Part shown: one piece after another, positions 1-25,209 of the stretch
Numbering within the stretch: the first letter of the stretch is position 1
Layout: the number at the start of each line of letters is the position of its first letter
Assembly (NCBI GenBank): GCA_025093555.1
Contig: JAIWNF010000014.1
Span: forward strand, 310,001-374,000
DNA length: 64,000 nucleotides
Reading direction: 5' to 3'
From: Circinella umbellata
Lineage: Eukaryota; Mucoromycota; Mucoromycetes; Mucorales; Lichtheimiaceae
Made by a program: the position numbers and the translations under genes
Notes under the pieces: generated by a model
Told to the model about the DNA's origin: nothing
What the model saw: the letters and a program-made list of their open reading frames with translations, nothing else
The model's database searches: none

Positions 1-1
1 G

Positions 2-91
2 CATGCTGATTATTTAGGAGGATATGTTGATCCTATGGGATCCCGCTCCCATTTTTCTCAAGGAGTTGATGTTACCAATACTGGTGCATAA
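2..91 (+). CDS. C-terminal end of an unidentified gene (5' truncated by the window)
   Basis: An open frame runs from the first bases to a TAA at 89-91 and gives 29 residues: HADYLGGYVDP, then a Ser/Gly-rich stretch, ending in VTNTGA. Codon use looks coding, with no low-complexity run, and the AT-rich sequence after the stop looks like a 3' UTR. The body of the gene lies outside the window, so no family can be named. It could also be a chance open frame at the edge. Confidence 0.45.
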   Translation, partial: HADYLGGYVDPMGSRSHFSQGVDVTNTGA

Positions 92-11921: not shown

Positions 11922-13283
11922 TTCTTTTCACTTTAACAAAAAAAAAAAAAAGATGAAAAATTTGTAATCTTTTCAGTACAAAACCATCTATTTTATATTC
12001 AGTATTTAGAGTTAATAGAAAGCTACTGCCATGTAGCACTAGTGTAGCATAATACGGTCAGGGTACTTCAGAAAAATTTTGTGATTGTGATACAAAACAT
12101 TGGAGTCCTAACTTGGTAACCATTTATGTAATATGTTAACATTGATGGAAAATATAATATTACGAAGTAAGTAAACGTATACGTTGTCATAAAATAAGTG
12201 GTTATGAGTCGCCACGTAGACCAAAAGAAATTAAAAAAAGGTCATTCACTATATATCCATTCTACTAGAATTATTGGATATCTTTTTCTATCGCATCAAA
12301 GATATTTTTCTACTCAATATACTGGCTTCTATAAATAAACACGGATTTACCACCGAACGTTTTTAGTTCAGCTTCGTAGAAGCTTCTGAGAATAAAAGCA
12401 AGAACTTGGATATTCTTTATGCAGCTTAACATTTCTATTCGCGCTCTGTAGTCACACACACACATTTGGAGTTTAGACTTTTAAAAATGAGACATTACAA
12501 AACAGAAATATCTTATAACTTAATAATATATTTGTATAACGTCAACTAAGACAGCAAGTAATTACAGAAAGGCAGAAAAGGATTGAAGAGTAAAGTTGGT
12601 ACAAGACTTTGAATTCAGGCATCATAAGAAGAAATAAAGTTACTTCGTTCACCGTATACTTTTTTTTTATTAGACTGCCGAAACTGTCCATGTCCTTCCA
12701 GCCCTGTCTGTCTTGAAAGAAATAACGAAAAAAATGCCGGTTCTTTATTAATACCTACATTAAATGCTTCCTTCAAAAACGAGATCTTGGCGAAAATATT
12801 GACGCCGTAGACGAATACATCTAAATATACACTCATTTAACCATTCGATGCATCGATAACAACAAAAACCATGGCTTGTCACTAAATGATCAACAAATAC
12901 TCTGAATTGCTTGACGATGTTTGTTCATTATTAGTTACTGCTCGTGGCAATGATTTTATAAAAAAAAGATTTGAGTTTAACAAAGTACTCAAAACCATCA
13001 CTGAACTAAATTCAATAAGTATCAACATGGTTACAAGTTTATTTTTTGCTCAACAAAAGTTATCAAGATCAACGTCTACCAAAAGCTGAAACCCTCTACC
13101 TTGTCGTCGGTCAGTAAAAGAAGACACTCCAGTAGTATAGAGCTAATCACTATCTTCTGTTCTTAATTTTGAGTCAAGCAATGCGTCAGTATCAACTTAG
13201 AATTATCATTATCCGTGAGATTTACCTCCTTTCCTTTAGCGATAGCCGCTGACAATGAGTTTATTAAAGATCGTTGTAAATAG

Positions 13284-16142: not shown

Positions 16143-16691
16143 TTAAGGTCGATTGCTGTCTCTTGCGTGATAATTACCGCCTCCTGATAGGTGGGTGCCT
16201 CTCTTTGTCATATGGCTATCTTTAGTAGCATGTTGATCTCTTTTTCCAGCGTGGTTTTCATTTGTAGCATGTTGATCTCTTTTTCCAGAGTGGTTCTCAT
16301 TTGTAGCATGGTTATCTCTTTTTGTAGCATGATCATCTCTTTTCGTAGCATGAGTATTTCCAGTGGCATGCATATCCCTTTTTGTAGCATGAGCATCATC
16401 TCTTTTCGTAACATGAGTATTTTCAGTGGCATGAATATCCCTTTTTGTAGCATGAGTATTTTCAGTGGCATGAGTATTCCTTTTTGTAGCATGAGCATCA
16501 TCTCTTTTCGTAACATGAGTATTTTCAGTGGCATGCATATCCCTTTTGACAGCATCAACATTCCTGGAAGCATGGTTGTCTCGTTTAGTTTCTTGAGTGC
16601 TTCTTACTTCCATCGCTGGAGCAGCATCAACAGCGGAAATTGCTAAAATAGCCAGAGCTACAAATAATGCGAGCAAAGAAAAGTTGCGCAT
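16143..16691 (-). CDS. Secreted repeat precursor with 12 Kex2-type sites releasing His-rich peptides
   Basis: Single exon, 182 aa, starting at ATG 16691. That ATG precedes a clean signal peptide (MRNFSLLALFVALAILA, predicted cut near VDA-APA); an upstream in-frame ATG at 16757 would bury it. After a short pro-region there are 12 Lys-Arg pairs. Cleavage after each KR would give DNHASRNVDAV, DMHATENTHVT, DDAHAT (twice), NTHATENTHAT, DIHATENTHVT, DMHATGNTHAT, DDHAT, DNHATNENHSG, DQHATNENHAG, DQHATKDSHMT and an 18-residue tail beginning GTH. Ten of 12 have His at position 3, the ATCUN motif (free N terminus-X-X-His) that binds Cu(II) and Ni(II). The layout matches fungal Kex2-processed repeat proteins, a class that includes pheromone and cyclic-peptide precursors. 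No processing enzyme gene is adjacent. Metal chelation, signalling or a wall role are all inference. Confidence 0.85.
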   Translation of the reverse strand: MRNFSLLALFVALAILAISAVDAAPAMEVRSTQETKRDNHASRNVDAVKRDMHATENTHVTKRDDAHATKRNTHATENTHATKRDIHATENTHVTKRDDAHATKRDMHATGNTHATKRDDHATKRDNHATNENHSGKRDQHATNENHAGKRDQHATKDSHMTKRGTHLSGGGNYHARDSNRP

Positions 16692-19600
16692 AGCAGTAGA
16701 TAAGGGTGGACAAAGAGAAAAAAGTACGATATCTAAAGTTTGATCAAGCATTATCATATTTATATATGTAATTTTTTTAAAAAAAATCCCTGTGTTACGT
16801 TATCAAGTTGCAATCATTCCCACCACTTTTTTCTCCCGACTGCAACTGCTTTGCTGTCAGTGTACGTACGGTAATATTATTATGTTTTCAAAAAAAAAAA
16901 AGTAACATCGGAAACAGTCTTGATCACATTATTGATTGAGAAAAGCGTAAAAAAAAACTCACGAATAATGGATTGGGCTGTTACACCTTCACAAACCACT
17001 AATAGTAATGTATGGGAATACGGTTTATAGTGAGTTTTTAATTTTACAAACCTCGTGAGAAACGTTGTTAGGTTGCAGAATAAATTGTGGCGTTGAGGAT
17101 TAAATGTCAAAGTTACCGGAAAAGAGCATTATGGGAAACCGACGAGAAGGAAACGTTTTACAATAAAGTAACAAGTGGTATATCAGTATATATGTTGTTA
17201 TTAGTGGAACCAAAGGAATGTATCACCAGTTCCTTCGCATCACGGAATAATAATTGCGGTACGTAATTATAATATCGAAAATCATATATGTTATAACCGG
17301 TGGTTATAGCAGAACCATTAAACTGCGATACATTGTGTATGTGAAGTATTTGCTTTTGCTGGCCAAATGTGTAATATGTATTACTTTCTCACGAGCAAAA
17401 GGTATGATACTGAACTGTTATTAAAGCTTGCCTCTCCACTTTGTGTCTGTTTGTAAACTGGTGCTGGTGGTGATACGTTACCTAATAATCTAGATCATTT
17501 TTATTGAGAAATTAAAAGAAGAATAATATATACATCATTTAAATAATAAAAAGCATAATTTTTTTTGATATAATATTTATAGTGGCAGCAGAAAATTATG
17601 AAGGGGAAGAAAAGCGTTATGCCGTTTAGTCTTACTGTAATTAAGAAAAGAAGAATGATCAAAATCAAAGTTTGAAAAAAAACATGTCCTCCTAAACGAG
17701 AAAAACTTTTTATTTTTTTTTAATAATATGGTGTAACGTGTCCAGGTAACAAAAACAATATTTTAGGTCAATTATCTTATGCTATTAGTGTTTCGGTTTA
17801 TCTATATTGTTTAGTGTATCTAATATACATTTGTTTGTTACTACGTAATAGTAATAGTGATGTTCTACGTTATATAACAGTAAATATGCTACTCTTATCA
17901 CTTTTGCTCTCTCTATGTTGACCAGTCAAAGAACTTTTTGACTTTCTCTTGACATGTTTAGCATTATTAGTAAATAATACGTTGTAGTTTTAGAAGAGAT
18001 CATTCTTGCTTAATTAATAACTATTTTGATATCATACCCAATAAATCTGCTTTATATTGATAATTTAAAACCACCATGAGAAACTGACTTATTATATTTT
18101 CAAAATAGTATACAAGATAATGGCAAATTGCAAATGATAGCACTCACCAGTGGATTTTGTATCTCTAAACTTATGTTGTCTTTGTAAAGAAAATTTTGGA
18201 CAAGGGCTACTTGCTGAAACTTTGCTGTTATCGTTATTGTGCATAGATTTTGTTGCCATAGGAAGAATATTTTTCATTATGATACGTATGCTATAATTTT
18301 TTTCATGATATTTAGACATTCGTTTATCTTCTTTCTGCTGGTTTATAGTATGAAAAAACGAATTTCGTTTTTTTTTTGCGGAAAATTAGAAGTGATGCGA
18401 CTTAATGACAACCAGTCAAAACGTGCGAGTATCAGAAACTGTCGTCAACTTAATCAACTACTTTATATTACGTTGTATAATCGCTTTTCTAATTAAATAA
18501 TACGTGATATATAGCCCAAGATTTTTTATATAAAGTAGAAACTATTGATTGCGTAGCAGCTTGACTGATTATTCTTCTGCAAGTAAGGAGGCTTTGCTTT
18601 GTAAAATAGCCATTTTGATAATTCATGCAACCGACGTGCGAACGGTTGCTGTTTTTTATTTGTTCTGGGTGTATCATGTTGATAGAAATAGACTTATTTT
18701 GTCAGCATTACACTAAATAGGTGCTACTACAATTCACGCTCCGTGTATTTATTATTATTATTTATGCAGACTGGGTGACAAAACAAATAACATGGTTTTG
18801 GTATAGTATGTAATAGAACATCAAAAATAGTCATCACCGATAGCCATGTAAACAACAAAAAGGGATAGGCGCTTTCTTTACATGATATAAACTTTTTTAA
18901 AAGATATGAATTAGGAAAAGACGCCGAGTGTTTACATCAGGTTTGTGTTCAATAGTTCATAATTACAAATAGAGATGGTTTTTAAGCACGTAGAGTGAAT
19001 GTGGTAACAATAGTGACCAAGAATGGAAAAAAGGGAAGTTATACAAGTTAACATAGATACTATTGATCACACGCTAATATGTTACGTATAGTGGTATGTT
19101 ATTATGTCATGAGAGCATATAGTTATAAAGAGTAGTTTATTATTATGGGCATATACAGGGGTTACAGTAATGTATTAATAATTACGTATTACAAAAAAAA
19201 ACATTTTTTCACCACTTGCAAAGAATATATGTATAATTAAATACATAAAAAAAGCTGGTTCTAGACCTAGTGAAAATACAACTTATCTTTGATAAATAGC
19301 GATTAACATGATATGATAATAGTTAAGTGTGTTATCATTTGTTTGCTTCTTAATCTTATTTGATCATCATCACAAATACGAAATCTTTCCATTAACAAAC
19401 AAGGGAAAAGTATACTATTCGATACTACTATTAGGCGGCATAACTAAAGTCTTTTTGCGTCATCGACAGCATAAAATCTCAAGTTCAATAATTCTGTAAA
19501 TAATAATCAAAAAGTAGACGCCATCGTATGAACAAGTATTTATTCCCCCCTCCAATATTCTCAATATTACCTTACCTTAGCATACACATAACCTACGTTA

Positions 19601-22335: not shown

Positions 22336-22686
22336 ATTTGTGATGTTTGTTGGAATCTAATCAAGAAAACACGAGTAAATATGATAAGACTGTATTAAGG
22401 TCTTTATTATTCAAAAATAGAACGAAAAATATGAAAGGTTCTAACAATATCATGGTATATATAATGGTTACTCGAATTTAAAGAATAAGCTGTTATCTAA
22501 GGGTAATAAAAATTTTAATTGACCAAAGCATTATGTCTTTGTTCTTGTTCAATCCTAATAATTGGCTCATTGTTGAATTCGTTATCAATCTAGGTATTCT
22601 TCCCAGATGGGAGTTTGTAGACCCAATGGATTGTAATGATTTATTCTCGGTCCTCATAATTGAGTTGTAAATACTTGAGATCAGTC

Positions 22687-23040
22687 TTCACCTATTCCAG
22701 AAATCATGCTTCTCTTCTTCAGTCTCTTCTTCGGTACATATCAAGCGGGAAAGGTCCACAATCAAACTAAAATAAGTGCTGCCACCATTAGCTCTTCACC
22801 TATTCCAGAAATCATGCTTTTCTTCTTCAGTCTATTCTTTGGTACATATCAAGCGGGAAAGGTCCACAATCAAACTAAAATAAGTGCTGCCACCATTAGC
22901 TCTTCACCTATTCCAGAGATCATACTTCTCTTCTTCAGTCTCTTCTTCAGTACATATCAAGTGTGAAAGACCTTCAATCAAACTAAAATAAGTGTTGCCC
23001 CCATTAGCTCTTCACTAATTCTAAAATACCTACTTCTCTC
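22687..23040. repeat. 108-bp tandem repeat, three full copies plus a partial
   Basis: Copies start at 22687, 22795 and 22903, each beginning TTCACCTATTCCAGA, and a degenerate fourth starts at 23011 (TTCACTAATTCTAAAA). The first two are nearly identical and the third has drifted. Because 108 is a multiple of three, one frame reads as a 36-residue hydrophobic repeat, but there is no sign it is a gene. It lies between the Tc1 piece and the Harbinger end. Confidence 0.9.
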
Positions 23041-23379: not shown

Positions 23380-24142
23380 ATGGATCCCACTACCATAAAC
23401 GCCTTTAATCAAATCGTTCAACAAGTTGTATTACTTGACAACGAAATTCAAAGAGTTCGCGATGAAGAAGAAAGATCTGGGCCGTTCTCTTTTACATATA
23501 TCAAAGCAAATTAGAGCTCGAGAAGCTTACAAAGCTGGACGAAAATATACAGATCGTAAACGAGAAATCTTTGCAAAGCATCTGGAGGATGACTATTTTG
23601 ATGACGAAAATAGTACTTTTGATGATAAGGCTTTTCGACGTCGCTTTCGTATGGAAAAAAAGCTCTTTTTAATGATCTCAAATAAGCTAAAGGAAAATTA
23701 TCGCTGGTTTCAACAAAAGCATGATGCTGCTCACAAACTCGGATTCACTACTTTGCAAAAAGTATGCGCAGCAATTAGCATGTTGGCAAATGGAGGAGCA
23801 GCAGACCTGGTGGACAACTATTACCGTCTAGCTCCAAGTACTGCACGCGAAAACTTGCGCCAATTCTGCCGAGCCATCATTTCATCATATGGGGCAAAGT
23901 ATCTTCGTTCTCCTGGTGTTGACGATGTCAAGCAGTTGCTTGTTTGGGGGGAACAGCAAGGATTTCCGGGTATGCTTGGCTCGGTGGATTGTATGCATTG
24001 GCGTTGGAAAAACTGTCCGACTGGATGGGCTGGCCAATACACCAGTGGAAACAAAGGGGGTCCTTCGGTGATCTTAGAAGCTGCTGCTTCACAAGATCTA
24101 TCCATTTGGCACTCTTTTTTTGGTGTGCCTGGATCTAATAAT
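23380..24142 (+). pseudogene. Truncated PIF/Harbinger transposase (DDE nuclease, plant-transposon family)
   Basis: An N-terminal frame starts at ATG 23380 (MDPTTINAFNQIVQQ, ending in RVRDEEERS). A +1 shift near 23460-23500 leads into the long frame that ends at 24145. That frame includes FRRRFRMEKKLFLMI and the nuclease signature LGSVDCMHWRWKNCPTGW followed by YTSGNKGGPSVILEAAA and FFGVPGSNN, typical of Harbinger/ALP1-like proteins. The protein stops just after GVPGSNN, where intact relatives continue with DINVL and two further catalytic regions. So it is both frameshifted and 3' truncated at about 24143, where an unrelated ORF begins. Confidence 0.85.
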
Positions 24143-25209
24143 TAGTAAACACTTTACAAACTACTTGACAAAAACGAAAGTTTTTGACTGGAAATATGAA
24201 GACGTAATAAAGCAGCTGCTTGACCTTGGACTCCTTCCTACTGACGAAAATAATGATTTACAAAAACTTGGTTCAATATATAAACATATTGTAACTAAGC
24301 TAAAAAACGAAAATTCAGTAACATACTCAGAAGCCGAACATAGAAAAATGGCAAGTGTCATTAAATATATGGAATTCTTATGTACCGCTTCACCAATCAA
24401 AAAGATTATACGCGAAAAGAAATGGCAATATAGATATCAGCAAACCTTGGAGAATGAAGTTTTAGATGCTGCTACGGTGGAAGAAGACTCTTGGGAGACT
24501 AAGAAAAAGACTGCCGAGAAAAACTTTGAAAATCTATCAGTGACTGATAAATTCATTCATTTAGCCACATATTATGGCGAAGATGGAATATTGAACCTCC
24601 AACACACGAAACTTCCAAAACGATTCAACAAGTACTTAAAAAAGATGAAGGACGAAGCTGGAATTGATGTAAAACCTTTGGTTACTCTTGAAGAAAGGGA
24701 CATGTTGGTTGAAATTTCTAATTGCAAGAACACGTCTGAACTTGAGACTCTTTTATCAACATGGTACTCCAAGAAAAACTTATCTTCAAATTGTAAATAC
24801 ATCAGATTCGCTTTGTCTGCGAGTGTTGAGCTTTGGTCAACAAAGGCTTTGGTTAATAAAACTCAAGGTGAAGACTGGTATCGGCTACATGTATATTCAA
24901 ACGTGTGGGATAAGGCTTTCCTCGATGATGAAGAGCTTGAAACCAAGCGCTCTGAATGTGTGAGTCAGGGTTACGAAGATTTTAAAGGAAGCTAAAAAAG
25001 ACGTTAAACTACAACGATTGGACTTCATTTTACGTGATATGAATAATGACACTGATGTGTTGACAGTAGAAGAAAAGCCATCTGTAAAGGGCGTAAAGGC
25101 TGATATTAGAAAGGGAAATATGTTGAAAAAACATGCACTTTACTTATGGTCTAAACAAGTTGACAGCAGCGCGCTTTGTAATAATTATTGCTTGGCAATT
25201 ACATCATAG
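24143..25209 (+). pseudogene. Orphan ORF with D...ExK nuclease-like signature, frameshifted
   Basis: A Lys/Glu-rich frame of about 285 codons (ISKHFTNYLTKTKVFDWKY... to GYEDFKGS, stop 24995) is continued in another frame from about 24962 to 25209 (...KLQRLDFILRDMNN, then VLTVEEKPSVKG). The join points to a single-base indel near 24961-24990. The reconstituted region has the spacing LD - about 13 residues - hEEK, as in PD-(D/E)XK nucleases. ELWSTKALVNKTQGEDWYRLHVYSNVWDKAF just before it looks like a conserved core. I do not recognise the family by name; it may be a passenger gene of a transposon or a lineage-specific multicopy family. The nuclease idea is inference only. Confidence 0.45.

Follow-up and report, generated by a model that had tools for sequence, protein, structure and literature searches.

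The gene that we describe here lies on the minus strand of the window (the whole stretch of 64,000 nucleotides from Circinella umbellata that was analyzed). It encodes a predicted protein of 182 amino acids plus a stop codon, and no intron is needed to read it (Table 1). When the same positions are translated from the plus strand, there are four stops. The predicted protein begins with a hydrophobic leader: the best 15-residue segment has a hydropathy of 2.95 (at residue 4), and the maximum past residue 30 is -0.83. The leader is followed by a pro-region of 14 residues, including its terminal KR, and then by the repeats. There is an alternative ATG upstream (at 16757), which would give a frame of 204 amino acids; because a TATA-like stretch abuts this ATG, we infer that the inner ATG at 16691 is the likely start. 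Apart from overlapping frames, there is no frame of at least 120 amino acids between positions 11927 and 21145 of the window. A Pfam search of the precursor (E <= 0.1) gave no family, and searches of the window with Rfam (at the gathering score) and ARAGORN gave no matches.

Table 1. Features of the precursor gene and other features of the window. Positions are those of the window; products are shown with KR removed.
Feature	Position	Strand	Basis or content
Coding sequence of the precursor	16143..16691	-	Open frame; pN/pS of 0.23 between repeat starts
Putative signal peptide, residues 1-23	16623..16691	-	Hydropathy; likely cut between VDA and AP (our judgment)
Short pro-region APAMEVRSTQETKR, ending with the first KR	16581..16622	-	Sequence
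Twelve predicted products	16146..16580	-	Sequence; tandem repeats of 39, 63, and 102 bp
Products 1-4			DNHASRNVDAV, DMHATENTHVT, DDAHAT, NTHATENTHAT
Products 5-8			DIHATENTHVT, DDAHAT, DMHATGNTHAT, DDHAT
Products 9-12			DNHATNENHSG, DQHATNENHAG, DQHATKDSHMT, GTHLSGGGNYHARDSNRP
Second half of unit 1, decayed	16548..16562	-	NVDAV, versus NTHAT elsewhere; CAT to GAT, His to Asp
TATA-like stretch TATATAAAT	16758..16766	-	Sequence; 75 bases upstream of the start codon
Tandem repeat of 108 bp	22685..23015		3.1 copies, 92% matches; lies just ahead of the transposase frame
"Plant transposon protein" domain (PF04827)	23399..24142	+	E = 2e-35
Frame after PF04827	24078..24992	+	305 amino acids; no significant family
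Single open frame of 2163 amino acids	53628..60116	+	RasGEF, RasGEF_N, PH, and RhoGAP domains together

Elsewhere in the window, the frame with the PF04827 domain encodes what is presumably a transposase of the Harbinger type, and the region from 23399 to 24992 is likely a DNA transposon.

The precursor contains 12 Lys-Arg sites, with 12 predicted products downstream of them. Seven of the units have 13 residues (KR included) and are of the type D-x-H-A-T-x-N-x-H-x-T-K-R. The core [D/N]-x-H-A-T follows KR once and, in many units, recurs six residues later. The remaining units are a decayed 13-mer (unit 1), two of DDAHATKR, one of DDHATKR, and the C-terminal GTHLSGGGNYHARDSNRP. The predicted products would have 5–11 residues, except for the C-terminal one, which would have 18. 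Ten of the 12 start with X-X-His, and the other two start with DDAH. A preliminary description of this DNA had given the same coordinates, the same 12 sites and 12 products, and the same ten X-X-His and two DDAH starts, and our translation matched all of these, with the gene on the minus strand. The KR at the 12 sites is encoded by four different codon pairs (its constancy is partly by construction, as the repeat sites were picked by KR). The products are linear and free of cysteine, and tyrosine is found in product 12 only. Because units 5–7 duplicate units 2–4 as a 102-bp block, with seven base differences (five that change an amino acid and two silent), the repeats are not independent.

This architecture is that of the Kex2-processed repeat proteins (KEPs), which were found in nearly all of the fungi surveyed (PMC6339444). 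In Mucoromycota, the reported average is 9.15 per strain (357 in 39 strains), and the survey total is 7878 stand-alone KEPs, of which 2560 have no homologue (PMC7329392). Their functions are described as largely unknown, and their peptides are truly secreted in other fungi (PMC9769878); for early-diverging fungi, their role is said to remain to be determined (PMC6339444). As given in the surveys, a KEP has at least three similar repeats between KR, RR, or KK sites, and these make up over 15% of the protein (PMC6339444, PMC7329392); Umemura's rule adds a repeat length of at least eight residues (PMC7329392). The precursor has 12 KR sites, seven similar 13-residue units, and two identical 8-residue units. 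A KEP is also expected to carry an N-terminal signal peptide without a later transmembrane segment and to occur in an organism that encodes kexin; the hydropathy of the precursor peaks in the leader (2.95) and does not exceed -0.83 past residue 30. As in the KEPs of Le Marquer (2019) and Umemura (2020), a leader is followed by numerous short, nearly identical units with KR at their boundaries. The repeated core, D-x-H-A-T, is not among the core motifs named in the cited parts of that literature (the EDYXI, DADAATXYV, YVW, SPPHKT, QKLKVD, XSDW, and HH types).

The genome encodes two kexin-type proteins, each with a Peptidase_S8 domain and a P-domain. For both of these loci, the best match is the solved yeast kexin (E = 1e-108 and 1e-95), and furin also matches both. 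The two paralogues (L002 and L003) are on contigs C170 and C1; in each case, the P-domain extends into another frame, which has a hydrophobic stretch that, in our judgment, resembles a membrane span. Coprinopsis likewise carries several kex2 genes (PMC9769878). There were also 26 matches to S10 carboxypeptidase regions in the genome.

Two other groups of fungal precursors, the alpha-type pheromone precursors and the dikaritins (ustiloxin type), share the leader and the KR-bounded repeats. Unlike the alpha-type precursors, none of the 12 products has the STE13 signature (X-A/X-P) after KR, and unlike the dikaritins, 11 of the 12 products lack tyrosine. A scan of 20 of the 35 frames in the window showed no UstYa protein, and a genome search for UstYa/DUF3328 gave zero matches, but none of the control genomes gave any either.

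The arrangement of KR and KRxxH is not due to chance. The window has 260 stop-to-stop frames with a length of 60 amino acids or more, and among these the precursor frame ranks first for the number of KR (12, followed by 10 in the 2163-amino-acid frame) and for the number of KRxxH (10, while the next best has 1). Shuffling the order of the codons for residues 25–182 (5000 times) gave at most six KR and three KRxxH. If KR was kept fixed and the residues of the products were shuffled (20,000 times), the number of products with His at residue 3 averaged 1.95 and reached 8 at most, as compared to the 10 observed.

The differences between the repeats also bear on whether this frame is translated. 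We compared the starts of the 12 repeats, taking KR and the next five codons of each. In the precursor frame, pN/pS was 0.23; the remaining sense frames gave 1.18 and 1.68, and the antisense frames gave 1.19, 0.75, and 1.37. These ratios are pairwise sums across related, non-independent repeats and give a direction, not a probability; in the alignment, the additional GCT codon was dropped from both DDAH units. The ratio was 0.10 without residue 2 of the products, 0.34 without the KR columns (versus 1.32 and 1.82 for the remaining sense frames), 0.17 without either, and 0.25 without the block copy (units 5–7; versus 0.97 and 1.60). The signal was weaker for the internal halves of the units (0.62, versus 0.82 and 1.19 in the other sense frames). 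Codon usage was not decisive, with a log-likelihood ratio per codon of 0.09 in this frame and 0.08 in one antisense frame. Only in this frame are most of the changes between repeat starts synonymous, so we take it to be, very probably, a real gene under constraint. Given the leader, the 12 KR-bounded repeats, and the frame-specific constraint, we are highly confident that it encodes a genuine KEP-type precursor, as had been proposed, and processing at the KR sites as laid out in Table 1 is probable.

From the known biology of KEPs, the leader would take the precursor into the endoplasmic reticulum. In the Golgi, kexin would cleave it on the C-terminal side of every KR, a Kex1-type carboxypeptidase would then trim KR, and the resulting short peptides would be secreted. 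By known chemistry, a start of Asp/Asn/Gly-X-His would expose a free amino group, two amides, and an imidazole, which together form an ATCUN site. Proline at residue 2 blocks ATCUN and glutamine or glutamate at residue 1 caps the amine; neither occurs in any of the products. The preliminary description was right that the predicted cut would create an N-terminal X-X-His, and tight binding of Cu(II) would arise through this cleavage in 10 of the 12 products; the two DDAH products, with His at residue 4, would not form the site. Most of the longer products have a second His, which could coordinate an additional metal ion. Provided that cleavage occurs as predicted, the chemistry of the ATCUN reading is sound, and it seems reasonably likely that they would bind Cu(II) with micromolar or better affinity.

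There are precedents for such sites in animals. Hepcidin starts with Asp-Thr-His and binds Cu(II) (PMC9779829, PMC4850187), and the reported log K of 12.9 for DTH-NH2, versus 7.7 for native hepcidin, shows tighter binding by the short ATCUN peptide (PMC4850187). As with hepcidin-25 of vertebrates, which is released by furin, a proprotein convertase would expose a free Asp-X-His; unlike hepcidin-25, which is a single disulphide-rich hormone per precursor, there would be about twelve linear, cysteine-free peptides, so this is an analogy only. Albumins start with DAH or DTH and have a log K of about 12, and the N terminus of histatin-5 is printed as DSHA (PMC7701195). These share the Asp-X-His start with our products, and histatin-5 shares the following Ala as well, but they are animal proteins and not kexin repeats, and we do not claim a relation. 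Abaecin-2 from ants is a disordered ATCUN peptide, described recently in a preprint, that is reported to help another peptide to inhibit bacteria while also shielding bacteria from copper (PMC13308032).

Is metal binding what these peptides are for? The preliminary description had suggested that selection acts on His at residue 3. In part, this agrees with the repeats: the aligned His is the only product residue without a replacement across all 12 repeat starts (10 in strict register), and residue 2 varies freely (six kinds: N, M, D, T, I, and Q), so that pN is 0.00 at the aligned His versus 0.64 at residue 2. On the other hand, Asp1 (10 of 12), Ala4 (11 of 12), and Thr5 (10 of 12) are nearly as constrained, and an ATCUN site has no need of them. 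In nine internal halves (residues 7–11 of eight 13-mers and the matching part of the last product, chosen by eye), His is present in eight, Asn in six, Ala in five, and Thr in five, and no ATCUN site would form there. His is therefore the most constant residue in the starts and in the internal halves alike, and the rest of the internal halves is more loosely kept. Counting starts and internal halves together, His is found at 20 of 21 sites and its neighbors at 16 and 15 of 21, which is not a significant difference (Fisher p = 0.18 and 0.09). Because the neighbors are nearly as constant, His3 is not singled out for ATCUN, and the claim that selection keeps it for metal is not borne out in that form. 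Also, the spacing from KR to His is two residues in 10 of the units and three in the other two (which are duplicated and identical), so a constant spacing holds for most of the units only. The internal His can be lost, because unit 1 carries Asp there. Overall, the pattern of conservation fits with the N-terminal five residues mattering most and the second His mattering too.

Cu(II) is reported to be bound less tightly when the residues at positions 1 and 2 are acidic (PMC7701195), so the Asp-rich starts are not expected from selection for the tightest site. The surroundings of the gene do not point to copper either. The scan of 20 of the 35 frames gave no gene with a link to copper, and the matches to copper transporters (Ctr) are on contigs C143, C145, and C167, while the window is on C46. 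No yeast-type copper element (CuSE or Mac1 type) was found in the 2 kb upstream (16692–18701); across the window, there were 67 CuSE-like motifs (versus 55.8 expected, a count reached by 6 of 100 shuffles) and 2 Mac1-like motifs (versus 3.5 expected). Given the acidic starts, the two products with His at residue 4, the conservation of Ala-Thr, and surroundings in which no copper link was found, we think it doubtful that metal binding is the purpose of the peptides.

In the foremost alternative, the peptides would act by their shape or sequence on a receptor or another target, as a self-signal or as an effector when the fungus meets other organisms. D-x-H-A-T would be the recognition core, with His as a contact, Asp1 would suit the kexin cut, and any metal would be incidental. 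This would account for the conservation of the entire core, instead of His alone, and for the way that Asp1 marks the cut: it follows KR in 10 of 12 cases but is found at the corresponding position of only one of the nine internal halves (Fisher p = 0.002). Also, the KEPs that have been characterized are mating factors, virulence factors, and modulators of mutualism, and act mostly in biotic interactions (PMC9769878). However, variation at residue 2 and in product length is unexpected for the ligand of a single receptor, the sex pheromones of Mucoromycotina are reported to be apocarotenoid (PMC6339444), and the STE13 signature is absent. We consider action on a receptor or target to be a serious possibility, although a tentative one.

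It is rather improbable that the protein is instead a repeat protein of the wall or matrix, rich in His, Asp, and Thr, that is secreted uncut or partly cut. The KR sites would then be spacers, and the His residues would jointly form a low-affinity polymer for Zn, Cu, or Ni, or one that responds to pH. The 145 residues past the pro-region do include 20 His, which are kept equally at terminal and internal sites. But KR is maintained at 12 sites via four codon pairs (in part by construction), Asp1 occurs mainly after KR, and the genome has its two kexin genes.

A search of 5.8 billion proteins with the whole precursor gave 1996 candidates, none at E <= 1, and a search with residues 25–182 gave 2256 candidates, none at E <= 10. 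The lineage is present in this collection: an exon for ribose-phosphate pyrophosphokinase matched Circinella minor at 100% identity over 75% of the query, which puts this DNA at or near that species (Mucorales, Lichtheimiaceae) and bears out the earlier placement in Mucoromycota, albeit from one exon only. The same exon matched Zychaea mexicana (81%), Fennellomyces (73%), and Lichtheimia (66%), and its best E-value was for an ENA protein (83% over 96%). The absence of homologues is nevertheless weak evidence because annotation easily misses small repeat genes. In the genome, the precursor gene was the only match at E <= 0.001 among the five best candidates, which were the ones scored, so diverged precursors could be missed. 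A second match (E = 0.1, in a search to E <= 10) lies in a 1336-amino-acid frame, and its 65 matched residues have no KR-x-x-H repeat. By these searches, the gene is single-copy in the genome and without a detectable homologue. That it is a recent lineage-specific or decaying repeat expansion, open by chance and without present function, would be in line with this lack of homologues, with the partly recent repeats (the 102-bp block), and with a synonymous-only codon score unlike that of neighboring genes (-0.10, versus 0.02 to 0.05 in six training frames), but it is very unlikely given the pN/pS well below 1 in the precursor frame only, the hydrophobic leader, the TATA-like stretch, and the 12 KR sites.

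Taken as a whole, we put at about even the chance that this is a Kex2-processed repeat protein that yields secreted Cu(II)-binding peptides. A copper role for them is plausible, and the function that we would predict as most likely is the secretion of small peptides that bind Cu(II), either to handle copper outside the cell or to interact with other microbes in a copper-dependent way. The most novel form of this idea is that one gene encodes a family of copper peptides that are activated by kexin, with about ten secreted Cu(II) chelators, no such sites before cutting, and affinities or targets that are tuned by the residue between Asp and His and by the length of the tail. We consider this form to be unlikely, but it makes a concrete chemical prediction, namely an N-terminal Cu(II) site that would appear only after the cut.

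The class itself is known, and an ATCUN KEP would be a new variation on it: among the literature matches listed, none described an ATCUN KEP, and only a review of histatins combined ATCUN with Kex2. If the copper reading is wrong, then the precursor is another orphan KEP, without a match in the protein collection that we searched. If it is true, then early-diverging fungi would have a polyprotein system for copper peptides that is convergent with the release of hepcidin by furin, and this would provide a class of mechanism for some of the orphan KEPs and a route of copper handling in Mucorales.
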